This document shows positions 1,241-19,536 of a DNA stretch of 64,000 nucleotides, one piece after another. A program made the position numbers and the translations under genes. The notes beneath the pieces were generated by a model, which was not told the origin of the DNA, searched no databases, and was given only the letters and a program-made list of their open reading frames with translations. The first letter of the stretch is position 1. The number at the start of each line of letters is the position of its first letter. Source of the stretch: Bacteroidota bacterium (GTDB taxonomy: Bacteria > Bacteroidota > Ignavibacteria > UBA10030 > UBA6906); contig JAHBUR010000001.1 of the NCBI GenBank assembly GCA_019637975.1, positions 140,444-204,443 on the forward strand, read 5' to 3'.

Positions 1241-2818
1241 TCAAGGAGAAGTAGCGGCCGACATCCTTTCGGTGAGCGCTACAAGCCGATTCTTGATCGG
1301 CGAAAGATCAGCATCAGTGGTTTGCGACATCAGTTCAAGATGACGAAATGCGGCATTCACATTGCCTTTTTGCAGCGACAGTTGCAAGCCAGCCTTATGC
1401 AACTCAAAATCTCGGACGCCATTTTCCTCTGCCAATTCGAGAGTTCTTTCAGCGGAATGAACATCCCCCGCCTCAATCTTCCACCGAACAGCAAAGCCAT
1501 ACGCCTTGCTGTTTGCGGGCTGGGCAAGGAGTGTTTTGTCTATGAAATGAATGGCAGAATCCAAGTCATTCAGTTTCCGGTAATGCCACGCAAGCGGTAG
1601 CAAGAGCTCGCTACTGTTTGGATTTGCTTTTGCCAGATGCTTGAATTGATCAATCACAAAACGGGCATCCTCAACCTGCCCGGCACATTCCAACAATTCT
1701 ACCACTCCTTCTTTAGCTTGCGTCAGTTCAACAATGTTCGCATACTGTATCAGCGCATTCTTGAATTCTCCCGCCGCCATGTATGTCATTGCCATTCGTT
1801 TCATGACATCTTCCCTTCTCAGATGAAGATCCGAAGCAATTTGATTTGAACGTTGAGCACCCGGAATCCGCAACAGATACTCGATGGACTTCAACTGCTC
1901 AATCGCCTTCGCATATACCTTCAAATCGAAATACATGAGTGAGAGAAACCAATGCGCCATTAATTGTTTTGGAGCGAGTTGAAGTGATTCACGGCAGAGT
2001 TCGACCGCTCCAGCTATGTTCCCCCGTTTCACTTCAATTTCGGCAAGCAGGTTGTAACAGGAGGCCCGATTGGTCACATCAAGTTTGCCGTTCTTCAAGG
2101 CCAACTCGAGCACCGGACCGGCTTCTGCATAGCGTTGCAGTACAACAAGGGTGTTGCCAATCTGAAATTGCGTATACGCATCATCGCACTCTGCAGTAAG
2201 TTGGTTCTTTAACAGCTCAAGATTCCGCTCCGCTTTCTGTTTGACGACATCATACCCTTGACCATAACCGAGATGGTGGATAACAAGAGGTGAACGCTTC
2301 ACGGCAAGTTTCAGTCGCATCAACGAGGGCCACACTTGTTCATGCACTTTCCCCTCGAACTTCACTCCGGGCAATCTCCTGAACAATCTCGGATAGGTAT
2401 TTTCCTGGTTGAAGTTGCCTTGTCGCAGCGAGTGTGGATTTTCGATGAGAACATTATATGCGCCGACCCCCCCTGCTGAGATGAGCTTCCGCAGCAATTC
2501 TACTTGACCACCTGTAAGTCGTTCATCTGCATCAAGATACAGGACCCAATCGCCCGTACACCGCTCAAGTGAGTAGTTCCGTGCAGCAGAGAAGTCGCCG
2601 ATCCATTCAAAATCAAATATTCGCGCTCCGTACCGGGCCGCTATGACTTTCGTTGCATCGGTGGAACCTGTGTCAACGATGACAATCTCATCAACGATAC
2701 TTTTGACGCTCTCAAGACAGTCGGGCAGAAACTTCTCTTCATTCTTTACGATCATCGAGAGTGAGAGGGAACTCCCCCGGCCTCGTTTGCTCTTCGTCTT
2801 TGAATGCGGCGTTGTCAT
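1241..2818 (-). CDS. GT2 glycosyltransferase with TPR repeats
   Basis: A 525-aa cytoplasmic protein. Residues about 18-200 are a family 2 glycosyltransferase (GT-A fold): LSLSMIVKNEEKFLPDCLES at the start, nucleotide-binding DTGSTDAT, and the metal-binding DxD in LYLDADERL. From about residue 205 to the end the chain is helical with TPR-like repeats (for example ALIQYANIVELTQAKEGVVE). This domain order is common in SunS-like transferases that modify polypeptides. The start lies only 5 bases after the stop of the giant glycosyltransferase gene and has no clear ribosome-binding site, so translation is probably coupled to it. Flagellin is the next gene downstream, so transfer of sugar to flagellin is a reasonable guess. 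The acceptor cannot be read from sequence. Confidence 0.9.
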   Translation of the reverse strand: MTTPHSKTKSKRGRGSSLSLSMIVKNEEKFLPDCLESVKSIVDEIVIVDTGSTDATKVIAARYGARIFDFEWIGDFSAARNYSLERCTGDWVLYLDADERLTGGQVELLRKLISAGGVGAYNVLIENPHSLRQGNFNQENTYPRLFRRLPGVKFEGKVHEQVWPSLMRLKLAVKRSPLVIHHLGYGQGYDVVKQKAERNLELLKNQLTAECDDAYTQFQIGNTLVVLQRYAEAGPVLELALKNGKLDVTNRASCYNLLAEIEVKRGNIAGAVELCRESLQLAPKQLMAHWFLSLMYFDLKVYAKAIEQLKSIEYLLRIPGAQRSNQIASDLHLRREDVMKRMAMTYMAAGEFKNALIQYANIVELTQAKEGVVELLECAGQVEDARFVIDQFKHLAKANPNSSELLLPLAWHYRKLNDLDSAIHFIDKTLLAQPANSKAYGFAVRWKIEAGDVHSAERTLELAEENGVRDFELHKAGLQLSLQKGNVNAAFRHLELMSQTTDADLSPIKNRLVALTERMSAATSP

Positions 2819-2823
2819 GTCAT

Positions 2824-5800
2824 TTACTTGTTTGCTGTCACGTATTCAATAAGCGAGTTCTCATCGGAAGGCAACCCAAGATGTTCGTTCACCTTGGCGA
2901 GCCCGTTTGTTGCCATTGTATTCTCCTCGTCATACACAACAGCATACTCAAACATAACCTTCGCTTCTTTGTCCTTTCCACACAAGTAGAGGACTTCGCC
3001 CAATCCCGCACATGCTTCCGATGAATCCGGTGTCAGATTCAGGGCCTCTTCGAAGCTCGCTTTCGCATTCTCCATATCGTTGAGACGAAGATAGCACGCA
3101 CCTCTGAGATTGGCATGGTCTGTTTGAGATGTTTGCGAAGCATTGTCACTGACCTTAGCTCCGGGGTCAAGCAATTCTGCGAGAGAATCCTTGAACCTCC
3201 CGAGCCTGAATAAATCAAGAGACTTCCCAAGCTTCTCCTGTAAATACTCATCTCCAGGTTGTTGTTGTGAAAACCGGAGAATAGGTTTGTTCGACAATTC
3301 ATCTATTCGTTTGCGGCATTTTGCGCCGGCGTGCTTCCAAGTCCATTGGCTGTGCGCATCTTTGCTGGCTTGTTGTCCAAGAGTCTTAAGATCGTCAGCA
3401 TGTTGTACTGCAAATGTCATCCTCTCGGCAAGTTCCTTCCTGTTCACTTCAAGCAGCCACGGAAAATCAACCGTCTCGTCATGGCCGATGTATTTTGAAG
3501 GGAGTTGTAGTCTGCTTGCTGAAACAAGAATACTGTTCTTCTGATTGCAAAAATCGAGAACCGCGCCGCCATTTGTGACAATTGCCGGGGTTCCGCACGC
3601 CATTGATTCGAGAATCGGCATCCCGAATCCTTCGCCACGGTACGGATGAACGAGTACGTTACATGCAGTGTAGAGCCCTGCAAGTTCCTGTTCAGAAAGA
3701 ATCTCATCGATGTATTGAATTTCCGGCATGCCGGGTTTCTTTTGAAGTTCGAGAATGACATCACGGAACGTTTGACCCTTGTAGAATGAATCCCCTCCCA
3801 TATCCTTGATCACAAGACACACATCATCAGTACTTCTGAATGTTTGTGTGTAAGTCTCCAGGAGAATATCGATCCCTTTTCTGTATATCGTTCCCCCAAC
3901 GAACAAGAACCTGAAGTGTTTCTTCGTCTTTAGTCTGAACGGCCTTACGTCAGGATGGAATTTTCCTGGGTCGAAGCCCGGCGGCACAATATGCACTCGC
4001 TCTGCCGGAATGCCGCTGCTGATATATACCTGGCGAACATACTCGGTGTACGCCCACACTTCATCCACGCGAGATGCGAAAGCCTCAACCCAGGATTTTG
4101 GCAGGCTGCCGAACTCCCACGGTTGCATTACAACCCAACGCCCTTCCCCAGGTGGCGTTAGGTTCGGTGGCCAGTGGTGACGAACGTGAATGTCAGTAGA
4201 AGAAAGTGACTTGTTTCGTCTTGCTTGAACAGCAGCAAACCGACTATTCTTCCCCGGCTTGAAATCATCCTCCCCGAATGGCACAACAGACATGTCACAA
4301 CCATGAACGAGAAGTTCTGCGCACAACTCACGGTTGATTACGGAAAGGGAATGATGGGCAAACGGCGTCCCTTCCCAAACAACAGCTACCGATTTCTTCC
4401 CTGCAGGTTGAATTGCATCAGTCTGGCGGGAAACAATCGCTGTCTTTATCTCATTCAATCGATTGATAATGATCTCGCTCACCCTCGTTTGACTGTAGTG
4501 TTCGACAATGTCGCGCCTTGCCTGTCTGCCTTTTTCCTTGGCCTCTTCCTGATGCTCAATCACGTGTCGCATCAGTTTGCGAAGGTGATTAATGGAAGGA
4601 TTCGCCCATTTGTGTCCTGTGTAGATCGGGTTCTCCATTTTATCAACATCACACAGGCCGTCAGATTTTATCAAATAGGAATTTGCCTGATTCATGAACT
4701 CTGTGTTGCCGCTCCAATCTGTGCCAATAACAGGTAGTTCCATTGCCATTGCCTCCATGAACGGCCTCCCCCAACCTTCACCGCGGCTTGGCAAAACGAA
4801 CGCATCAAACGTCTTGTACAACGCCGGAAGCTCCGATGTGGCTATTTGATCATCAATAACCTCGATGGCAGGGAGTGAACTTCTTTCTCTTCCCAGGCGA
4901 TCGGCGAATTCTCTAACACGTCTCATCACTTCGTCACGCACACGCAAGTCGGGGTGCATAGGAAAGCTGGTGCGCAAGAACAAGCACACATCGTCGCTTG
5001 CCGAGAATTCAGAGAAATATGCCCGGAGCAAAATGTCCCAACCTTTTCGTGCCGACCACTCAAAAACCGAGAGAAAGTTAAACTGCTTCGTGTTCTCAAT
5101 TCCGAACGCTGGGGTTGTTGCCGGATCAAACAGGCGGGAATTGATTGACCCCGGAATCTTCATAAGTTTCTGTCTACTGACACCCGATTTCGCAAACGTC
5201 TGCATGTTAAACTCAGTAGGCACCCACACTTCATCCATCTGGTTGCATCGTTCAACCCACTCTTCAGGAATCCGGTCGGTTTCGAACATCGTCCTGCCAA
5301 TACAGTACGCTGAATCTTTGTTGCGGAAGAAGCCAAGCGGATTCTGGTGACACACCACGATAGGCCCGTCTGCCCAGAATGATTGATCCTTGAACGGCAA
5401 GCCATTGAGCGACCGTGTATAGTCAAGCTGCTGAAGCGTCGTTCTTGTGTCTGCCGGTAATCCGGCCACAAATTGAGATGAATAGATGGTGTTGGCGTGA
5501 TAGATACGCAGCGGTACTTCATTCGAAAGCGATTCCACGAATTGAATTGCTTCGCTTGCATAACCGCTTGGATTGTAGAACGGCGCGAACCACAGCACCG
5601 GAGTCTTCCCTTCAGGCGTCTTCCCGATGTCCGTTCGTTCAGGAAGAAAGTTCTCCGCAGAGAACGCGGACAAATCAGATTTCGTAATCGCTGCTTGGGT
5701 GGACGGGCGGCCGTGAATATCAACTCCCTCAATCTGCCTCATATCATCGAGAACGGCCTTGGCGATCACATCCCATGTATAGCGTGAGAGGATTGTGCTG

Positions 5801-8800
5801 CGGGCGACGCTTCCCTTCCAACGGCTTGTCAGGCGGTTATCCGCTATGTGACGCATCAATTCTCTCAAGTGATCTTCATCGATTCCGGTCGTTCCTCCAC
5901 GCTTGCGCTGCCTTACTACATAGGATAGTGTTTCGGAAACGTAATCCGCCTGACCGCCGGCGGTTGTAGTGATTACCGGAAGCCCGGTGGCAAGCGCCTC
6001 AAGTACCGGCCGGCCGAAATATGAATCCGTGTACGGTTGCACAACGGCGTCGGCGCCGGCATAGTACAGCGGCATCATGTTCGCATCAAACGTGCGGTAG
6101 TCGATGCGGACTGCGTTGTAGTACTCCGACGGGATATCCCGGTGCGCCCTGATGAACTTTGCCGTCAACTCATCGAATTGCTGTTGTTGCTTCTTGACAT
6201 CATTTCTGAAATCCAAGGATCGGAGAAGCAGGCACGTACGGGGATCCCCTTTGAACTCCTTGACGAACGCCGAAAATACACTCTCCCATCCACTTCTCGC
6301 CGACCAGTCAGTCATACAGAGAAACACAAAAGGATCATCTTGACGTTGTTCGGCAACATTTGTCCCGTAATCAAGCGTACCGACTCCATACGGAACAATT
6401 TTGACCTTGTGCTCGTTCACACCGGCGGCAATCATCTTGGTTCTTACGTGACGGGACGGCACCCAGACAGCATCAATATCGGGCTTCCCGAGACGGCGCA
6501 CCGATGCCTTGTCAGTGTCATGTGCCATCACGACAACGAAGGATGCACCAGTCCGGCGTTCGAAGTAACGCAGAGGGCCGGGGAACACCTGGATGAATTT
6601 GTCCGCGAGAGGTTTCTGCTCAAGCTCCTTGAGGCAAGCCGCGTCGTTTTCGTTTATGACATTCTGAGGATCCGCACGATGCAGAAGTGGCCTAACTGCT
6701 ACTCCTGCCCCATGACGATGCAGCGCGAGTGCAAGCTCGCGGCAGGGATCATCCATTGCCCACACCGGGCCTTCCCACAGAATTGTGGCATCGGATTGTT
6801 GTTGAACCCTTGGTACTGCTCGGATGTTCTTGACGCTAAGCGCATACTCGGCATACTGTCGCGCAATCGAGCCAACATCGTTGCGTTCGTGCACGAAAGC
6901 CCGGGCCCGGGCTGATAATTCTCTTGCAAACACAGGATTGTCATGAATCTTGACAAGCGACTGCACAATCTCCTCTACTTCATTCTCAAACCCGATCTTG
7001 ACAACGCTATCGTCGGGAAACTCCTGATATTGAGCATACGATGATACAAGGGCCGGCTTGCCGCAACCGAGAACTTGAATCAGACTTGCAGATTCTTCAC
7101 CTCGCGAAGGGTACCGCAAGTTGACAGTGACATCTGCCGCAGACATGTAGGCGAAGAAATCATCTTCAGAGAGCCAACCTGTTATGCGAACCTTGCTCTG
7201 AAGTCCATGTTGCCTGATAAGGCCGTCAAGATACGCCTTGTACTGCGGACTGGCAGGCTCGCCGCCTAAAATCAGAACAGCATCGGGATGTGATTGAGAG
7301 AATTCCGCAAACGCCGCAACCGTAACGTGGTTTCTCTTGTGGGGCTGCACCAATCCCAGCGACAGTATGACAAATGCTTCGCGAGGAATATGTAGCCTCT
7401 CCCGTACACCATCCCTGTCTTGATGAGCCGCATCCAACGCTTGCGATGCAAGGAGAAGCGGAATCACTCGTATCGGCTTGTCAGGAAAGGCGGAGTGCAG
7501 AAGATTGTACGAGTGCTGATTATGAACGACTATGCCCGTGCTTTGCCGCAGCACAGTCTCGAGCACTTTCCGGTTGTTCGGTTCGGCGCTGCATCCCTTG
7601 ATTTCATATTCGTGAACTACGGCAATGCCGGGCATCTTTCTCGCTTGGTCACAGATCGCCGTATGAAAGCGGTTGTTTCCGAGATGATAGATAATCTGAT
7701 CGTACCGGTGAATCCAATTGACATATTCGAGATCGGTAATCGAATGCACCAGGTATTTTCTGAACACATCTTCATGGCTGGGGACATAGTCGTCCACGAA
7801 GAGGTCGACCCGGGCGTGCCGTGAAAGGTTCGGGAGAAGTTCCTGCACATGATCAGCAATGCCGGTTTTCAGCGGAGCGAGGGGCGCAACCATCGCAAGT
7901 CGCGGCAAGTCACTATCCGGGCAGGCAAGTTCATCAGTTTTGTACCACGCATATTCGTCGGAGATGATATCGTTCTCCCAGCGATCAAGAAACAGCTTGT
8001 AGTTGTTGTCCGACGCATTGTGCCCTTCTTGGCCCGCGTTGCGTATCGAAACGGATTCGAAATGATACAACTCGCTTTGAGGGCAGTACACCACCTCCTT
8101 TCCGATCCTTCGCACTTTGAAGCAGAGGTCAAGGTCTTCGCCGCCGTTCTTGTACTTCGTATCAAAGCCGTTCACTTCTTTGAACGTTGTCTTCGAGATG
8201 AAGAGTGCTGCGCCCGTTACCGCTTGCACAGTTCTCTCCCGATTCACAAACGGCTGCCCGGCGAGACAGAACTTATACAGGTGAAGTGATCCCTTCTGAT
8301 CGTTGAATGCGATTCCACAATGCTGCACACGCTCCGGTTTCCCGCTCTGTGTTGTGTCGGGAAAAACGAGCTTCGAGCCGGCAATGCCGGCGGCGGGGTT
8401 CTTCTCGACGACATCGACAAGCGCATCAAGCCAGCCCTGTTTCTTCGGCACTGTATCATTGTTCAGGAAAAACAGGTACTTCCCCTTTGCTTCGACTGCC
8501 CCGGCATTGCATGCACGGGCAAAACCACCGTTCTGATCCAGCGAGATGAACCGACAGTTTTTGTATTGTTTTGAGACTTCTGAGAGGAAATCCGCCGTTT
8601 CATCCGTTGAGCAATCATCAACCACAATGATCTCAAAGGATCGTTTTGGCGGAAACGAAGTATAAATCCCTTCAAGACACTTCCTCGTGTAATCCACATT
8701 GCCGAAAACAGGAATGATGATACTCACTTCAACTCCCGGCGGCACTCCCCCTTCTCTGACTTTTTCGACCGCTTCGCACGGACTGGATACTTCCTCCCCG

Positions 8801-11181
8801 ATTGCGTTCTCTCCATCGGTCACAAGACCCAGTTGCTCCTCCAACGCCTTCACCATCTCTTGAATAGCTGTTTCCGCGGGATTGACTTTCGCAAGCTTAC
8901 GGAAGCAGACCAGGGCATCCTCAAATTGCTGCTCCTGCAAATACAGGCATGCCAGTTCCGTTTGTGCTTCAATATCATCCGGAGTGATTTTGACTATCGT
9001 CAGAAGTTGTTCGATTGCCTTTTCTCTCTGGCCGGACTGAGTGAGTACGTCGGCAAGATTTTTCCGTGCGGCAATGCAGTTGCTGTCCGCAGCAATAGCC
9101 CGCCGAAAATACTCTACTGCTTCATCGCATTGTTGCTGCTGAAACGCGATGACGCCGCTATCGTTGAGCGCCAGCGCGTGCATCGGATTCGTTTTCAGGA
9201 TCAAGCGTAATTGTTCGAACGCAGCGTCATTCTCTCCTTCGTTCATGAGAAGAGCGGCCAACGAGTACCGTGCAGATTCGAAACCCGGCTCCACTGCAAG
9301 CGCTTCAACAAGATCTCCCCTTGCTTCTTCCTGCCGATTCAGGGACAGCCGGAGTTCAGCCCTTTTCACCAACACATCAGCCTGGCGTGTATTCTTCGCG
9401 AGATATCTGGTGAGAACGGCGTCGCCCTTTTCAGCCTGACCTGATTTGAAGAGCGTGTCAGCCAAACGCATATATTCGTTTTTGAAATCACGCCGCGAAA
9501 GCTCCACTTCTTCCAATTCTTTCCGTAATACCTCCACATCCCGCACCCGACTGAGTGGGTCGGGGTCGGCCATAAGTGAAGCAAAATCAACAAATTCGGG
9601 GTAATATAACGCCAGTGCTGCAACAACAACTCCCATCGAATACACATCATCAAAACTGCCGTCCGACGGACGACCCTCGTTGCCAAGTCCGTCGGGGACA
9701 AATGACGACACTTCTGCGGAGGTCGCCCAGCCGAAGTCGATCAAGACCGGATGGCCTTCACGTACCAATATGTTCTCTGCTCTGATGTCCCGATGAGTTA
9801 TCTCCCTTTCCTGCAATTCACCAACTATATCGATACACTCACGAATAAAGTGTTTCACCGAAGCAGAGTCATGTTCGGCGCAAAACCTGTCAATGTTCGT
9901 CAAAGGATATCCTTCAACAAACTCCATTTCGCATGTTGAGTACCCGTCTTGCGATTTCGATTCGTACACTCGCGGGAAATGAGCACCGGACAGTCGGGAG
10001 AGGAAGTAATGTTCCAACTGTGCAAGGTTCGACGTTGCCTGCTTGACGACTCGTTTCGTTCCGTTTTCTTCAAGAAGGTAGATTCTGCTTTGATAGGGAA
10101 TACCGTCATGAACCGTAAGCTGCCTGCTGTAGAGAACGGATTCAACCGGATGAATGAAGGGGAGTTTCGGCAACACGGAAAGATCGGTTGGCTCAACCGG
10201 GTCCAGATGCTGTTGCTTCAGAATCGATGCGCAGTATCCGAGTGCATTCACGCTTGCAGCATCGAAGGACATTCCAGCGGATCCGGCAACTTCGACAAGC
10301 TTCTCCGCATAGTCCTTCCCCATCACCCCCTTGTGATACACGACGTGATAGAGAAGGGCGAGGAAATGATCTTCCGATGAGGGAACGTAGAAATTCCTAT
10401 ACTTCTCTCTCCGGGAAAGAAGCCGGTGTGAAAACCACCCGGGGTAGTAGCCGTCATCAGTTGTTCTGAGATCTACAAGAATGTACGTTTGATCGCCGTT
10501 CGGTCCTAAAACAGGAATCTTTCGCTGAACACGGTACGGCTCCTTCTGCGTTCGCATACCCCGCCACAACGAATCGAATTTCCCGACATGCTGGGGATGG
10601 ATCAGAAGATCAAGATCACTATGCGGCCCGACTTCGATGTTGTCCGGCAGGTTTTCCCAGTTTCTTAAAACAACATAGAGAATGTTGTTGTCGTCGAGAA
10701 ACTGCAACAGTGCCTCGACTGAGTGAAGCGAATGCGCATTGAATTTGTCGCATGCCGCCCGTACGGTTCCGGCAAATCTGAGGAAATCGTTATTCGCCAT
10801 CTCAACACGCAGGTCGCGATAGTGCATGTGAACGAATGTATCTTCCTCGAGAAAATGCGAATCTTTGGAGGTTTCATGTGTTTTGTACAGATTCTCACAT
10901 ACCTCGATTTTGAAATCATCGGGTGTGCAGATGGGGTTGGCAATCCGCATTCTCCCCATCTCAAAATGCGGGGCTGAGGATGGAGATCCGGCATTCCGCC
11001 AGTTGTGAAGCGCTTGCTCGAATGTCGCTACAAAGTCTAGGAAATTCTCATGTGTAAGTTCGAGCCTGAGATTTCGCCAGTGAAAATGGAATGTCTCGCA
11101 ACATTCAATTACAAATCGCTTATCGAAAATTGTTTTCTTCGGAATCTTCGCTGCTACAAGCGGAAGAAGCGTTTTACCCAT
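2824..11181 (-). CDS. Giant multidomain glycosyltransferase with nucleotidyltransferase-like, kinase-like and TPR domains
   Basis: A single uninterrupted frame of about 2,785 aa. I chose ATG at 11181 because GGAG lies five bases upstream; an in-frame TTG at 11235 would add 18 residues but has no such signal. Approximate domains: 20-150, two copies of an unrecognised module (core HFHWRNLRLEL and VHMHYRDLRVEM); 160-300, a nucleotidyltransferase-like domain (LRNWENLP, SDLDLLIHP); 375-565, a protein-kinase-like domain with VVKQA, HRDIRAENILV and LIDFGWA; 570-780, TPRs; 815-1045, a GT2 domain (VSIIIPVFGN, FLNNDT); then four GT4-type domains near 1090-1445, 1460-1820, 1858-2250 and 2264-2627; 2645-2775, TPRs. 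Domains 3 and 4 keep the E-x7-E nucleotide-sugar motif (EGWGRPFME, EGFGMPILE); 1 and 2 are degenerate. No signal peptide or membrane segment is seen. It probably assembles an oligosaccharide in one polypeptide. Position upstream of flagellin suggests flagellar or cell-surface glycan as product (inference). Confidence 0.9.
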   Translation of the reverse strand: MGKTLLPLVAAKIPKKTIFDKRFVIECCETFHFHWRNLRLELTHENFLDFVATFEQALHNWRNAGSPSSAPHFEMGRMRIANPICTPDDFKIEVCENLYKTHETSKDSHFLEEDTFVHMHYRDLRVEMANNDFLRFAGTVRAACDKFNAHSLHSVEALLQFLDDNNILYVVLRNWENLPDNIEVGPHSDLDLLIHPQHVGKFDSLWRGMRTQKEPYRVQRKIPVLGPNGDQTYILVDLRTTDDGYYPGWFSHRLLSRREKYRNFYVPSSEDHFLALLYHVVYHKGVMGKDYAEKLVEVAGSAGMSFDAASVNALGYCASILKQQHLDPVEPTDLSVLPKLPFIHPVESVLYSRQLTVHDGIPYQSRIYLLEENGTKRVVKQATSNLAQLEHYFLSRLSGAHFPRVYESKSQDGYSTCEMEFVEGYPLTNIDRFCAEHDSASVKHFIRECIDIVGELQEREITHRDIRAENILVREGHPVLIDFGWATSAEVSSFVPDGLGNEGRPSDGSFDDVYSMGVVVAALALYYPEFVDFASLMADPDPLSRVRDVEVLRKELEEVELSRRDFKNEYMRLADTLFKSGQAEKGDAVLTRYLAKNTRQADVLVKRAELRLSLNRQEEARGDLVEALAVEPGFESARYSLAALLMNEGENDAAFEQLRLILKTNPMHALALNDSGVIAFQQQQCDEAVEYFRRAIAADSNCIAARKNLADVLTQSGQREKAIEQLLTIVKITPDDIEAQTELACLYLQEQQFEDALVCFRKLAKVNPAETAIQEMVKALEEQLGLVTDGENAIGEEVSSPCEAVEKVREGGVPPGVEVSIIIPVFGNVDYTRKCLEGIYTSFPPKRSFEIIVVDDCSTDETADFLSEVSKQYKNCRFISLDQNGGFARACNAGAVEAKGKYLFFLNNDTVPKKQGWLDALVDVVEKNPAAGIAGSKLVFPDTTQSGKPERVQHCGIAFNDQKGSLHLYKFCLAGQPFVNRERTVQAVTGAALFISKTTFKEVNGFDTKYKNGGEDLDLCFKVRRIGKEVVYCPQSELYHFESVSIRNAGQEGHNASDNNYKLFLDRWENDIISDEYAWYKTDELACPDSDLPRLAMVAPLAPLKTGIADHVQELLPNLSRHARVDLFVDDYVPSHEDVFRKYLVHSITDLEYVNWIHRYDQIIYHLGNNRFHTAICDQARKMPGIAVVHEYEIKGCSAEPNNRKVLETVLRQSTGIVVHNQHSYNLLHSAFPDKPIRVIPLLLASQALDAAHQDRDGVRERLHIPREAFVILSLGLVQPHKRNHVTVAAFAEFSQSHPDAVLILGGEPASPQYKAYLDGLIRQHGLQSKVRITGWLSEDDFFAYMSAADVTVNLRYPSRGEESASLIQVLGCGKPALVSSYAQYQEFPDDSVVKIGFENEVEEIVQSLVKIHDNPVFARELSARARAFVHERNDVGSIARQYAEYALSVKNIRAVPRVQQQSDATILWEGPVWAMDDPCRELALALHRHGAGVAVRPLLHRADPQNVINENDAACLKELEQKPLADKFIQVFPGPLRYFERRTGASFVVVMAHDTDKASVRRLGKPDIDAVWVPSRHVRTKMIAAGVNEHKVKIVPYGVGTLDYGTNVAEQRQDDPFVFLCMTDWSARSGWESVFSAFVKEFKGDPRTCLLLRSLDFRNDVKKQQQQFDELTAKFIRAHRDIPSEYYNAVRIDYRTFDANMMPLYYAGADAVVQPYTDSYFGRPVLEALATGLPVITTTAGGQADYVSETLSYVVRQRKRGGTTGIDEDHLRELMRHIADNRLTSRWKGSVARSTILSRYTWDVIAKAVLDDMRQIEGVDIHGRPSTQAAITKSDLSAFSAENFLPERTDIGKTPEGKTPVLWFAPFYNPSGYASEAIQFVESLSNEVPLRIYHANTIYSSQFVAGLPADTRTTLQQLDYTRSLNGLPFKDQSFWADGPIVVCHQNPLGFFRNKDSAYCIGRTMFETDRIPEEWVERCNQMDEVWVPTEFNMQTFAKSGVSRQKLMKIPGSINSRLFDPATTPAFGIENTKQFNFLSVFEWSARKGWDILLRAYFSEFSASDDVCLFLRTSFPMHPDLRVRDEVMRRVREFADRLGRERSSLPAIEVIDDQIATSELPALYKTFDAFVLPSRGEGWGRPFMEAMAMELPVIGTDWSGNTEFMNQANSYLIKSDGLCDVDKMENPIYTGHKWANPSINHLRKLMRHVIEHQEEAKEKGRQARRDIVEHYSQTRVSEIIINRLNEIKTAIVSRQTDAIQPAGKKSVAVVWEGTPFAHHSLSVINRELCAELLVHGCDMSVVPFGEDDFKPGKNSRFAAVQARRNKSLSSTDIHVRHHWPPNLTPPGEGRWVVMQPWEFGSLPKSWVEAFASRVDEVWAYTEYVRQVYISSGIPAERVHIVPPGFDPGKFHPDVRPFRLKTKKHFRFLFVGGTIYRKGIDILLETYTQTFRSTDDVCLVIKDMGGDSFYKGQTFRDVILELQKKPGMPEIQYIDEILSEQELAGLYTACNVLVHPYRGEGFGMPILESMACGTPAIVTNGGAVLDFCNQKNSILVSASRLQLPSKYIGHDETVDFPWLLEVNRKELAERMTFAVQHADDLKTLGQQASKDAHSQWTWKHAGAKCRKRIDELSNKPILRFSQQQPGDEYLQEKLGKSLDLFRLGRFKDSLAELLDPGAKVSDNASQTSQTDHANLRGACYLRLNDMENAKASFEEALNLTPDSSEACAGLGEVLYLCGKDKEAKVMFEYAVVYDEENTMATNGLAKVNEHLGLPSDENSLIEYVTANK

Positions 11182-11431
11182 ACTGTCTCCGGATTTTTTG
11201 CGCGCAAATCGGATGTATTGAAGCCTGATGTGCAACCATCGTGCCGCTCAAAATCCCGCAAAAAGCCCGACGTATGCCGCCCCAAGAATCCCGTTGGTGG
11301 CTACTATTGTGCACTCGGTTGCTTTTCCGGGCCGGCACAATTCCTTTGCTTCTGCTCCCCCAACTTGGTATTTTTTGAAGGTTGAGGAGCATCCGATCTG
11401 CCCTCAACGAAATCAACCATTACAGCGCCCT
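11182..11431. other. Divergent intergenic region
   Basis: A 250-bp gap between the divergently read giant glycosyltransferase and class V aminotransferase genes. It must hold both promoters, but I see no convincing -35/-10 pair or operator. The aminotransferase frame stays open upstream to 11228 without a ribosome-binding site or family-like sequence, so I treat that extension as non-coding. Confidence 0.4.
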
Positions 11432-12634
11432 ATGCACGCGGTTCTTGAACAAGAGAAGGCAGAGTTGCTTACTGAAAAGTTTCTGGCAGAAGCTAGAACC
11501 CTGTTCCCCCACACAAAAACCGGCACGATCTATCTTAATCATGCAGGAACGTCTCCCCTCTCAACTCGAGTCGTTAACGCGATGAAGCTTCACCTGCAGG
11601 AACGATCAGAAGGCTCAATTGATACATACTTGTCTCTTGATGTGCCGAAAATTGCAGAATGCAGAGAACGCGTAAAGGCCCTGATACGTGCAGAATCAAC
11701 CGAGCGTATAGCCCTTTTGACGAACACTTCGGATCCGCTGAATGTTGTCGCTTCGGGGCTGAAGTGGAAAAGCGGGGATAGGGTTCTTTTGCATGAGGAT
11801 GAGTTTCCGGCAAATGTGTGGCCGTACCTCAATTTGAAGCGTCTCGGAGTCGAAATCGATGTCATTCCGAGAGGCAAAGGCCACCCAACCCCGCAGTTGA
11901 TTGCTGATTCGATTTCCGGGAGAACAACACTGGTGGCATTGAGCGCCGTTCAATTTCTCACCGGTTACCGTGCAGACCTTGCTGCAATCGGTTCACTTTG
12001 CCGGGACAAAGGGATTGTTTTTGTGGTGGATGGAATCCAGGCTGCGGGCGCGGTTCGTTTGGATGTTCAGCACATGAAGATTGACGCACTCGCGGCGGGG
12101 TGCCAAAAATGGCAGATGGGTCCGCACGGCTCGGGTTGGCTGTATGTTACAGAAGAACTACAGTCCAAAATTCAGCCGGAACACGTTGGTTGGCTTTCCG
12201 TCGAAGAACCGTGGAATTTCTTCGACTACGAACAGTCCTTAGCCTCATCGGCAAGACGATTTGAGGGAGGAACGAAGAACATCCCCTCGTTGTGGGGAAT
12301 GGAGGCAGCCCTCTCTACGCTGCTGGAATTCGGACTCGAAGAAATCGAGGGGCACATCCTCACCCTGACGCAGTTGCTTCTTGAGGGCCTCCGTTCGATT
12401 GACGGTGTGAGGGTTTTGACGCCGGACGAGATGAACCATAGGGCAGGGATTGTCACTGTTGAATTCGCTCAAGGGATGAATGCCGAATCCGTTTTCCGGC
12501 AACTCGAACGCCGTGATATGACTATCGCGTTGCGGGATGGCAAGCTCCGTTATGCGCCGCATTTCTACAATTCTGCAACTGAAATTGAGCTTGCGATTTC
12601 CGCAACTCAGGAAGCTATTCAACAACTGAACTAA
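11432..12634 (+). CDS. Class V PLP-dependent aminotransferase / cysteine desulfurase-like enzyme
   Basis: A fold-type I PLP enzyme of about 400 aa. Visible family marks are YLNHAGTSPLS near the N-terminus, TNTSDPLNVVASGL (cofactor phosphate region), FVVDGIQAAGAVRLDV with the Asp that contacts the pyridine nitrogen, and the Schiff-base lysine in AAGCQKWQMGPHGSGWLYV. The C-terminal small domain follows, with RFEGGTKNIPS. It resembles the isopenicillin-N-epimerase/cysteine desulfurase group. The exact reaction (desulfuration, epimerisation, kynureninase-like cleavage) cannot be assigned. I chose ATG at 11432 because family similarity begins just after it, though its ribosome-binding site is poor. 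A receiver-domain gene follows after 15 bases and is probably cotranscribed. Confidence 0.85.
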   Translation: MHAVLEQEKAELLTEKFLAEARTLFPHTKTGTIYLNHAGTSPLSTRVVNAMKLHLQERSEGSIDTYLSLDVPKIAECRERVKALIRAESTERIALLTNTSDPLNVVASGLKWKSGDRVLLHEDEFPANVWPYLNLKRLGVEIDVIPRGKGHPTPQLIADSISGRTTLVALSAVQFLTGYRADLAAIGSLCRDKGIVFVVDGIQAAGAVRLDVQHMKIDALAAGCQKWQMGPHGSGWLYVTEELQSKIQPEHVGWLSVEEPWNFFDYEQSLASSARRFEGGTKNIPSLWGMEAALSTLLEFGLEEIEGHILTLTQLLLEGLRSIDGVRVLTPDEMNHRAGIVTVEFAQGMNAESVFRQLERRDMTIALRDGKLRYAPHFYNSATEIELAISATQEAIQQLN

Positions 12635-12649
12635 ACCACCGGGGGAATC

Positions 12650-13057
12650 ATGAACTCACAAAACACAAATGCCATGAAACCTGAACTGAAGATTCTCCTC
12701 ATCGATGATAATGAAGAGTTTCGTGTCGCCCTCAAGCATCTCCTTGCTTCCAATAAGTTCGACATTATCGAGGCGGGAAACGGCGAACAAGCCCTCGAAC
12801 TCATGAACACCGACGTGCCCGACATGGCCATTGTCGATCTTGATATGCCGAAGATGAACGGGATTGAGTTTTCCCGAAAGGCCAAAAAGGAACGCCCCGG
12901 GTTCCCGATTATCATGGTAACGGCGTACTCACAGTTCTATTCATCGAAAGAAATCATCGCTGCGGGAATTGACGCATTCCTGCAGAAGCCGATAGATGGT
13001 GATACGCTTGTTGCAGTGATTCAGCAGTTGCGGCAAGCAGCAAGCAGGATGAATTAG
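12650..13057 (+). CDS. Stand-alone response-regulator receiver domain
   Basis: 135 aa, a single CheY-like receiver with no output domain. The acidic pocket is DD at 19-20, the likely phosphorylation site is Asp63 (MAIVDLDMPKMNG), the switch Thr lies in IMVTAYS, and the conserved Lys is in FLQKPID. A GGGGGAATC ribosome-binding region precedes the ATG. It lies 15 bases after the aminotransferase gene and is convergent with the PorV-like gene. A partner kinase is not adjacent, so the output must act through protein contact. Whether it feeds into chemotaxis or another phosphorelay is unknown. Confidence 0.9.
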   Translation: MNSQNTNAMKPELKILLIDDNEEFRVALKHLLASNKFDIIEAGNGEQALELMNTDVPDMAIVDLDMPKMNGIEFSRKAKKERPGFPIIMVTAYSQFYSSKEIIAAGIDAFLQKPIDGDTLVAVIQQLRQAASRMN

Positions 13058-16589: not shown

Positions 16590-19536
16590 TTAGAAAGTGA
16601 TGTTCATACCGAAGTAAAACTCACGAGGATTATCGTACACCATCGACCCGTCCTGCGTAACCGCCCGGTTGATTTTCGAGCCGCCCGTCGGGTCGCCGTA
16701 TTTTTCCCATGCCTCCTGCCCAAGAGTCGAAGAATTGTATGCTGCAATGTTCGTCCAATTGAATGCATTCATAATATCAACATACAGAGCGATGCGGGCG
16801 ATACGTTCGACGGTGAAGACTTTTTCTACGCGCAAATCAATCCGCCGGTTCCATGGGGCAACGCCAAGTTCGCGTGCACGAGGATCGCCCAGTGTGAGCG
16901 GATAGTAGAATCCACTTTGAAACATCCCGACACCGGACAATGAGATGCCGAGCGGAAATCGAAAGAGTAGATTGAAGGCAATTCTGTGTGTCCGATCGTA
17001 GCCACCCGTTAGCGTGCTACTTCCCCCCAACACATTGCGTTCGATAGTATTGAATGAACGAATGTCATCAAAAGGCAGTTGGCCGTTGTAGCGGGCACTA
17101 TCGCTCGCCGAGGAGAATGTCGTGACATTGCCTCCGGCGTACACGGCCTGTTTGATATAGCTGTATGAATAGGATACTCTTCCTCCCAATGTGAGCCAAT
17201 CAAGAACCGCCGTCGGATGTGAACGAACAGTAAACTCTACGCCACGGGAGTCAGCATAGCCGAAATTCGTGCTTATGTTGTACCCGCGCCACGGAGAGCG
17301 AGGTGTTACGGAGAACATGATCGTCCCGTAGTTCTCTATGTCTTTGTAGTAGGCATTGATGTCAATGCCGTAGTTGTCCGCAAACATCCATTGAATTCCC
17401 AAATCATAGTTGGTGGAACGGATCGGGTCCTGATTCGTCCGGGTTGTGACTTGGGGAGAGACGGGTTGCCGAAGTCGTTATAGTTGCTGTACAGCCTCAA
17501 CAGTTGCGACTGTTGCTGGCTTTCAAAGACGAGAAGTACAGTGCCGCTCTATCACTTATCGGATGTGAAACACCAAGCCGCGGAGAAAACAAGATTTTCG
17601 ATGAGGCATTGTCGGTTCGAACGGGAAGGCGCCGGAGATCCGTGACACTGCCGTTCACCAACGTCGTGTCATCACGAAACGGCGCGAAATAGTCTGCGTA
17701 GTCGCCGGCAGAGAGATCCAGGACATCAAGACGAAATCCGAGATTCAGTATCAACCCTTCCAGCTCTATTCTGTCTTCAGCATACAAGCCGTACTCCTTC
17801 GGTTTGATGTTCCAGATCTCTTCCACATAATTCTTGTACTGCGGAAACACACCGCCGATATATGCAGCGCGGAGTGTCCGGGCAAGGTTGTGAAATCGAA
17901 ACTGGGCTCCCGCTTTGAGTTGATGATGTGTGGAAAGCCTGCTCGACACATCTCCTTTCAGAGTGAAGACAGAATTCACGAATCGCTCATAAAAAATACC
18001 CGGACGGGCGAGTTTCCAGGGTATGTTGCCGCCCAGCGTTGTCTCGCTTCCGATTTCGTTGCGCGGTTTTGGGGTGAAGAATTTTTCGAACTGGGTTCCG
18101 TCATTGGCGGCCATGTATCTGTTTACCTGCGCGGTATCTCCGAAGGTAAGAAAGTCGCCATCTTCATCCAGTGCAATAATACCGTCATTATTGTCGTCGG
18201 AGAATCCCCGACGCATCAGATCACGCACGAAACTCGCTTGAACTTCATAGAGCAGATTTGATGTGAGAACTTGCGAGAACTTCACGCTGCCGACAACATT
18301 CACTCCATCCCACTTCGGCACCCCTTCAAGAAAATAACGGAAATCGTCGGCATAGTCCCGGTTCTTCCATCCCAACATGCGGCCCCTGTCCTCCACAATC
18401 AGCAAACCTGTGAGATTCATCTCATCAGCAGGTCGAACGTTCATCCGTACGGTGGAATTGATTCGCCTCGTAAATTCATTCGGCAATCTGCCATACGAAT
18501 TGAAGAAGCGTGTTGTAAGGAAGATTCCTCCCTCGTCAAACTCTCTTCCGAACGAGAATTCGGCATCGAAAGTGGGCCGTTCTCCGTATGAGTATTTTCC
18601 CGGCGTGTAGGTGTATAGTTTTGCTTTCGTAGAGTCGGCGGCGGTATTTTTGTTTAACAACCCGGCACGTTCACGAGTATAGATTGAATCATCATTGTAG
18701 ATTCGTGGACCGGCATGAGCAAGGCCAAACTGACTTAAGCTCACATTCACTTTCGCTGTCCATTCCGGCGCAGGAGCCTGAAGATTGTACTCGATTACCC
18801 CGCCTGTCGCGCTTGCGTACTCGGAGCTTGTCGTTCCTGCCAACACATTCGTCTCGTCAACCGATAGTGCATTCAGGCTGACAAGCGACGAGCGGTTCGC
18901 CTGTGATTGTCGCATAATTGCGTTATACACCATGTAAGGGGTAACGGAAACTTGATCGCTTGCGGCCGCGTGAAATTGATCCGTCACATCCACGCCATCT
19001 ATCAATGTCTTCGTCTCATATTGCCGTCCGCCGCGGACGAACCCCTTGTAGAGGGAGGGACTTACCGTTAGAGCGGATTCTTGAGATCGGAGCGGAAGAC
19101 TGCTGATATCGCCCTTGGTGAGAGTTGTTTTGGGTGTTGTTCGGCCCGGGTCGACGACTGGTGAATATGCAATCACCTCGTCCGGAAATTCCACTTCCTT
19201 CTCAATCAGGGCAAAGTCAACTGTGACTGTTTCGGAAACTCCAACCCGGATCAAACGCAATACAGTTCCGTATCCTACATGCGTAACCTGGATTGTGTAA
19301 CTGCCTGGCTGGATTTCGTCGAGTGAGTAAAAACCCTGTGAATCGGTGATGGTGCCGCGCAGGGTATTCTTGAGAAGAACGGTAGCGCCAACCAGCGGTC
19401 CTTGCGAGCCGGCATCTGTTATTCTGCCGGAAATATTTCCGTTGGCAGCAATAGCTATGTGACCGGCTGCACCGGAGATGCAGAGGCAAACGAAGAGCCT
19501 TCCTACCAGACGTCGGGTGAGTAATGAGACGGACAT
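16590..19536 (-). pseudogene. TonB-dependent receptor, interrupted by two one-base gaps
   Basis: Together the pieces describe a protein of about 980 aa. It has a signal peptide (residues 1-30), a carboxypeptidase-regulatory-like domain (NISGRITDAGSQGPLVGATV), a plug domain (about 120-260) and a beta-barrel ending FYFGMNITF with a terminal aromatic. The first frame (19536 to 17497) reads into a stop after SSLKASNSRNC. Adding one base near 17525 restores FESQQQSQLLRLYSNYNDFG in the next frame. A second added base in the CCCC run at 17453-17456 restores VTTRTNQDPIRSTNYDLG and the rest of the barrel. Both lesions sit in short homopolymers and everything else is intact, so sequencing error is as likely as true mutation. 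Neighbours are a secreted protein and a PorV-like protein. Confidence 0.85.

Follow-up and report, generated by a model that had tools for sequence, protein, structure and literature searches.

Bacterial protein glycans are usually made by separate enzymes. In the window, which here means the whole stretch of 64,000 nucleotides that was analysed, a single gene placed ahead of flagellin encodes one polypeptide with five glycosyltransferase (GT) folds, and the question is what such a giant protein is for and how much of a glycan it could build. The reading favoured here, at a probability of about 0.7, is that of a cytoplasmic, modular assembly protein for the flagellin glycan, combining a fixed docking tail with interchangeable catalytic modules.

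The frame starts with an ATG at position 11181, ends with a stop codon at 2824-2826 and runs over 8.4 kb of the minus strand (Table 1), so that the first-pass annotation, which had claimed an unbroken frame of about 2,785 aa, was exact on this point. This length, the many significant domain matches and the 70% protein identity that its final 924 residues share with a relative in synteny place it far beyond chance. Promoter and terminator scans gave a number of sites not above that in shuffled sequence. From the N- to the C-terminus the protein consists of two repeats, a nucleotidyltransferase (NTase) domain, an ePK-type kinase, TPRs, one GT2 domain, four GT4 domains and a C-terminal TPR. The domain search proposed along with the first-pass annotation returned from Pfam one GT2, four GT4, two TPR regions (about residues 590-795 and 2656-2785, in agreement with the two blocks seen earlier) and the kinase above the gathering cut-off.

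Table 1. Features of the giant gene and of its neighbours on the flagellin side (positions in the window)
Feature	Position	Strand	Remark
Whole giant glycosyltransferase gene, 2,785 aa	2824..11181	minus	uninterrupted frame
N-terminal region, two related repeats (FHFHWRNLRLEL..., VHMHYRDLRVEM...), residues ~23-145	10747..11115	minus	
Pol-beta-type nucleotidyltransferase domain (PF14907-like), residues ~150-330	10192..10734	minus	weak match and model
Protein-kinase-fold domain, residues ~340-562	9496..10164	minus	K / E / HRD-N / DFG intact
First TPR block, residues ~590-795	8797..9414	minus	Pfam
GT2 domain, residues 834-1065	7987..8682	minus	DD / NND / ED motifs intact
GT4 domain a, residues ~1095-1510	6652..7899	minus	E-x7-E read as E-x7-Q
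GT4 domain b, residues ~1530-1860	5602..6594	minus	without conserved Lys and first Glu
GT4 domain c	4432..5571	minus	catalytic motifs intact; CHB1 DNA similarity restarts inside, ~5301
GT4 domain d	3292..4398	minus	catalytic motifs intact; 83% identical to CHB1
Constant C-terminal TPR module (motif SSEACAGLGEV...AKVMFEYAV)	2827..3234	minus	proposed flagellin/export dock
GT2-TPR protein, 525 aa, SunS-like	1241..2818	minus	start codon 5 bases past the giant gene's stop
Flagellin, 275 aa	124..951	minus	

In regard to the glycosyltransferase part, the five domains read earlier stand as folds, but only three of them (GT2, GT4c and GT4d) are clearly complete. The GT2 domain belongs to PF00535 (95.6 bits, cut-off 23.3), with VVDD at residue 853, NND at 907 and GEDLD at 1013. 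PF00534 and PF13692 each gave four stretches above the gathering score (177.7 and 172 bits), the Glycos_transf_1 match reaching E = 1.9e-52, and the conserved Lys together with E-x7-E is complete in GT4c and GT4d, not in all four. In GT4a, otherwise called slightly altered, Gln replaces the second Glu. GT4b has Ser at the first Glu and Ser at the conserved Lys and, as both are lost, is judged from its sequence to be probably inactive.

For the front of the protein, structure models were used as well. Its N-terminal repeats gave a weak DUF6686-like match (E = 0.012, under the cut-off), and in a first joint model of residues 1-585 their pLDDT was mostly below 50. The following region matched PF14907 (NTP_transf_5) at 18.7 bits, under the cut-off of 31.2 for family membership (E = 0.0014), and had no match in the PDB up to E = 1; its assignment as an NTase thus rests on the structure model and on relatives. 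The model (pLDDT 72, pTM 0.73), built on an alignment of six sequences that is shallow, like the one behind the kinase model, resembles most closely, among solved structures, MenT1 (Z 10.7, rmsd 3.8 over 150 aligned residues) and ANT(2'')-Ia (Z 9.8, rmsd 3.9 over 149); further matches include MenT3, LnuA and, below ANT and MenT, FKRP of the LicD/FKRP phospho-alditol transferases at Z 7.0. The catalytic acids are in place (D-L-D at 189-191 and VDL at 236-238, with D237 as the third acid), so that by the model the domain has a Pol-beta nucleotidyltransferase fold with DxD and third acid; the nucleotidyltransferase-like domain of the first-pass annotation is upheld by fold, relatives and acids, but not by its Pfam score. 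The kinase noticed at the same time is well founded: PF00069 (Pkinase) matched at 44.3 bits against a cut-off of 31.7 (E = 1.9e-11), with APH and RIO1 also matching, the motifs VVKQ, LEHYF, HRDIRAEN and DFG are intact, and the model superimposes on PknB (Z 17.9, rmsd 3.0, 202 aligned). Membership in the WaaP/Kdo sugar/LPS kinases (PF06293) failed, at 14.7 bits against 21.3.

Relatives of this front are few. With the N-terminal 590 aa as query, no relative turned up on genome contigs, and among 60 relatives of the source genome only the kinase region was matched outside the genome itself; a plasmid search gave kinases only, and a phage search with the NTase gave nothing. Of 391 genomes in the class, 5 have the NTase family, and giant proteins with an NTase-kinase front, or a remnant of it, number four in all, in the source genome, G162, G273 and G668. 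The G162 giant (2,294 aa), which shares 26% identity over 402 residues across NTase and kinase, continues with TPR, GT2, GT2, GT4 and methyltransferase domains; in the alignment its NTase has lost the third acid (N for D), and the gene does not lie beside flagellin, in a genome that bears flagellin. It also breaks in the middle of the GT4 and resumes in another frame (L100 3115-3139, G162:C125), an apparent frameshift. The G273 protein combines TPR, GT41, FkbM methyltransferase, NTase and kinase, has FliS and FliD as neighbours and comes from a genome with flagellin, while in G668 (L179, G668:C46) an 1,827-aa fragment with an unrecognisable kinase part directly follows genes resembling cheA and cheB; by eye, it contains methyltransferase-like, degenerate NTase and sulfotransferase-like parts. 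Furthermore, lone NTase genes, and one for a 742-aa protein that joins NTase and kinase but has no GT domain, occur in or near polysaccharide-type clusters. Two proteins joining NTase and kinase (L103 4092-6320, L101 8608-10335) have a middle part with RGGNW..GP and H-S/T-x-D that is also found in L102 and L106, adjoining polysaccharide genes; by eye it appeared nucleoside-diphosphate-kinase-like, but no such Pfam match was obtained, and this assignment is not made.

Such a front could also be a regulatory or toxin-antitoxin-like relic, in which NTase and kinase would control the GTs or the flagellar genes and not modify a glycan. The presence of MenT1 and MenT3 among the best folds of the NTase, the vicinity of the kinase to the Hanks-type Ser/Thr kinase PknB and its sequence matches, which are Ser/Thr kinases, point in this direction, as does the G162 NTase, which without its third acid suggests that the domain can be dispensable. 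On the other hand, the pair accompanies GTs, methyltransferase, sulfotransferase-like domains and polysaccharide clusters, with no antitoxins, and the fold searches give the sugar-modifying ANT(2'')-Ia and FKRP as well. We consider this explanation possible, although somewhat unlikely; it concerns the front of the protein only and leaves room for a flagellin-glycan role of the rest. A phospho step on the glycan is plausible in this member, and the modelled folds are compatible with sugar phosphorylation, with an ANT-like transfer of NMP onto a hydroxyl of the sugar or with an FKRP-like transfer of a phospho-alditol.

The association with flagellin is seen first in the window. The position of the gene upstream of a second GT2-TPR protein and flagellin was confirmed, and immediately beyond the edge of the window come a second flagellin, FliS, FliD and FlaG. 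The GT2-TPR neighbour matched TIGR04195 over the GT2 region (E = 1.5e-21) at 76.8 bits, well short of the cut-off of 350 for membership in the SunS family. The genes upstream of the giant one, for an aminotransferase-like protein and a response regulator, are read from the opposite strand. Neither polymerase, flippase nor lipid-linked priming transferase was found among the immediate neighbours.

Giant proteins beside flagellin in other genera have the C-terminal TPR module, with its clear motif, in common. When 84,980 genomes were scanned for the pattern of this module, with flagellin playing no part in the query, 65 loci came up, all but two from Ignavibacteria/Melioribacteraceae or Bacteroidetes/Chlorobi-group genomes. 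In 42 of the 63 Ignavibacteria-group loci flagellin lies within 10 kb, always downstream and on the same strand, at a median distance of 2.6 kb, bearing in mind that flagellin-linked examples went into the tail alignment and that the pattern sampling favours close relatives of the tail. Many of the remaining 21 loci terminate shortly past the match, and flagellin was found in all 12 checked genomes whose tail loci show none nearby. A GT2-TPR homologue is present in 57 of the 63, and the order giant GT, GT2-TPR, flagellin, fliS, fliD is repeated across Ignavibacteria. The same arrangement in other genomes, which the first-pass annotation had suggested looking for, is therefore present, and the refuting case, homologues without any link to flagellin, does not hold. 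For the best match at each locus, protein lengths have a median of 719 aa, but 30 exceed 1,000 aa, eight exceed 2,000 aa and five have at least 2,785 aa; tail-module proteins reach 3,461 aa and contain up to six GT2, or one GT2 and five GT4. Neither the length nor the five GT folds of our protein are thus exceptional in the group. Its domain combination had seemed unfamiliar, which holds for the rare NTase-kinase front alone, multi-GT giants beside flagellin being ordinary in the class. Giant mix-and-match, flagellin-linked enzymes appear as a widespread and undescribed set in Ignavibacteria, and they probably build a flagellar sugar coat.

With a strict E limit, the tail module was found in 9 of 60 relatives, and flagellated relatives such as G013, G016 and G029 were without it; flagella are patchy in the order, with flagellin and FlhA each present in 21 of 60 genomes. 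One relative, G006, has a 3,358-aa giant GT protein, open at the contig end (G006:C193, L107 9733-19809), in a genome in which neither flagellin nor FlhA was found. By eye, the start of this protein resembles the tail of an asparagine synthase, and response-regulator and histidine-kinase-like genes follow downstream in an order resembling the flagellar-gene neighbours of relatives. In six other loci, mostly from Melioribacteraceae (L118, L119, L120, L124, L130, L144), where flagellin is outside the flank examined, a protein of about 700 aa with five tail-like TPR stretches adjoins the GT2-TPR gene.

The G006 genome is also what a second explanation could draw on, namely that the giant protein makes a cell-surface polysaccharide (O-antigen, capsule or S-layer glycan) and that its adjacency to flagellin reflects co-regulation. 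Polysaccharide loci commonly contain GT2, GT4, NTase and kinase domains, and genes of the NTase family are found in such loci of other Bacteroidota (L102, L104, L106). However, the regular position ahead of flagellin on the same strand in two thirds of the group loci (42/63), an immediate neighbourhood in which polymerase, flippase and priming transferase were not seen, and TPR tails that suit a protein acceptor make this explanation quite unlikely.

The interchangeability of the catalytic modules is seen within one genus. The locus of CHB1 (G001), an uncultured Chlorobi bacterium (contig CAADGV010000007.1) of which a genome was described from anammox granules, is syntenic with the window, with DNA identity of 88% over window positions 18083-11337 and of 84% from 5301 on, reaching into the flagellar genes. 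The 6 kb in between (11337-5301) have no CHB1 counterpart except one 47-base match; CHB1 carries there an unrelated 2.5 kb with methyltransferase-like and kinase-like parts, so that the first ~2,000 residues of the giant protein are exchanged in frame. Base composition of the front is uniform and genome-like, with no signal of recent foreign origin. A third species, G002, shares the left flank, followed by NDP-sugar C-methyltransferase, GDP-mannose-dehydratase-like and RGP-like genes and then by at least 914 aa of a different giant GT that runs off the contig. One site in one genus thus has three different contents; its left edge is bounded in all three genomes by the aminotransferase-like gene and the small response regulator (window 11228-13057). 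The different front in CHB1, together with the fact that ours is seen in a single genome, could be taken for an assembly or cloning chimera, and an assembly join had been named at the outset as what would overturn the one-gene reading, but this is next to impossible given that both conserved flanks are syntenic and in frame, that composition is uniform, that G162 has the same NTase-kinase-TPR-GT2 run in one frame, and that giant proteins are common at the flagellin-linked site.

According to the favoured reading of a flagellin-glycan assembly protein, flagellin would be the substrate and the work would be done stepwise in the cytoplasm. The neighbouring GT2-TPR protein would put the first sugar directly on flagellin, the constant TPR tail would hold the giant protein on flagellin or on the export machinery, and its GT2 and GT4 domains would add further residues to this sugar singly, with nucleotide sugars as donors. 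The kinase, perhaps also the NTase, may place a phosphate-bearing group on the glycan or its precursor, and the completed flagellin would be exported and then polymerised. Swapping of the catalytic front between close relatives, with tail, flanks and flagellin fixed, would change the filament glycan. The first-pass annotation had seen a whole glycan assembly line: a multi-step builder tied to flagellin is borne out by the recurrent gene order, but the line is probably incomplete, because the first sugar is likely supplied by the GT2-TPR neighbour and the nucleotide-sugar genes would be situated elsewhere. Against this reading stand the giant without flagella in G006, the G162 giant away from flagellin, several flagellated relatives without the tail and the apparently dead GT4b; the G006 exception would mean that in some members the substrate is a different one or the protein has survived the loss of the flagellum. 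The generic nature of TPRs counts against the reading as well.

Several known systems provide models for individual steps. The proposed dock is drawn by analogy from FlmG of Caulobacter, whose TPR domain alone binds flagellins and which likewise has a TPR module steering a cytoplasmic flagellin glycosyltransferase, but which has 596 aa and a single GT of the GT-B superfamily (PMC7591256). Stepwise action is modelled after GT1-GT3 of C. difficile type B, which glycosylate flagellin directly and sequentially and of which GT2 carries a methyltransferase domain (PMC5207246); a modifying domain is thus fused to a GT there as well, but the genes are separate, the domains are of the PF00535 family only, and kinase or NTase are not reported. 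The idea of a phosphate-bearing glycan comes from FgtA (PA1091) of the PA1088-PA1091 island (Pseudomonas aeruginosa b-type flagellin), which is likewise flagellin-linked and in which a GT2 is fused to a phosphate-transferring domain, the flagellin glycan having a phosphodiester substituent; CD0240-CD0244 of C. difficile type A are grouped with it (PMC11833859, PMC10714395). These differ in having a TagF-like phosphotransferase and a separate CDP-forming enzyme for the nucleotidyl step, whereas in the giant protein five GT domains and two TPR blocks share the polypeptide with a Pol-beta NTase and an ePK-type kinase; TagF/Glyphos_transf is absent from the best 25 of its 38 Pfam matches. SunS-type GT2-TPR peptide glycosyltransferases resemble the 525-aa neighbour over the GT2 region, the neighbour being far under the family cut-off. 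Fold and logic, but no more than these, are also shared with mammalian POMK, a kinase phosphorylating a protein-linked sugar, and FKRP/fukutin, NTase-fold phospho-ribitol transferases acting on the same dystroglycan O-glycan (PMC6965139); these are separate enzymes. No paper describing flagellin glycosylation in Ignavibacteria was found in the literature searched.

A class of bacteria therefore appears to hold many glycan steps in one polypeptide beside flagellin. In its most far-reaching form, which is speculative and rather unlikely in full, flagellated Ignavibacteria would run a polyketide-synthase-like, one-polypeptide glycan line with a fixed TPR dock and a hypervariable array of modules, swapped in frame, that add sugars or decorate them, in which here kinase and NTase-fold domains would give a phosphorylated or nucleotidylated glycan in parallel to POMK/FKRP. 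With a constant tail and an exchangeable front, it becomes possible to ask whether the order of the domains specifies that of the sugars in the glycan and whether front swapping diversifies the filament surface, e.g. in evading phages or predators. The kinase-NTase front would offer a handle on phosphorylated protein glycans.

Elsewhere in the window, a TonB-dependent-receptor-like gene (16590-19536) is broken into frames of 679 aa and 270 aa on the same strand. Its CHB1 counterpart continues through the end part (L071 3-1493), and the split looks like a frameshift or an assembly slip.
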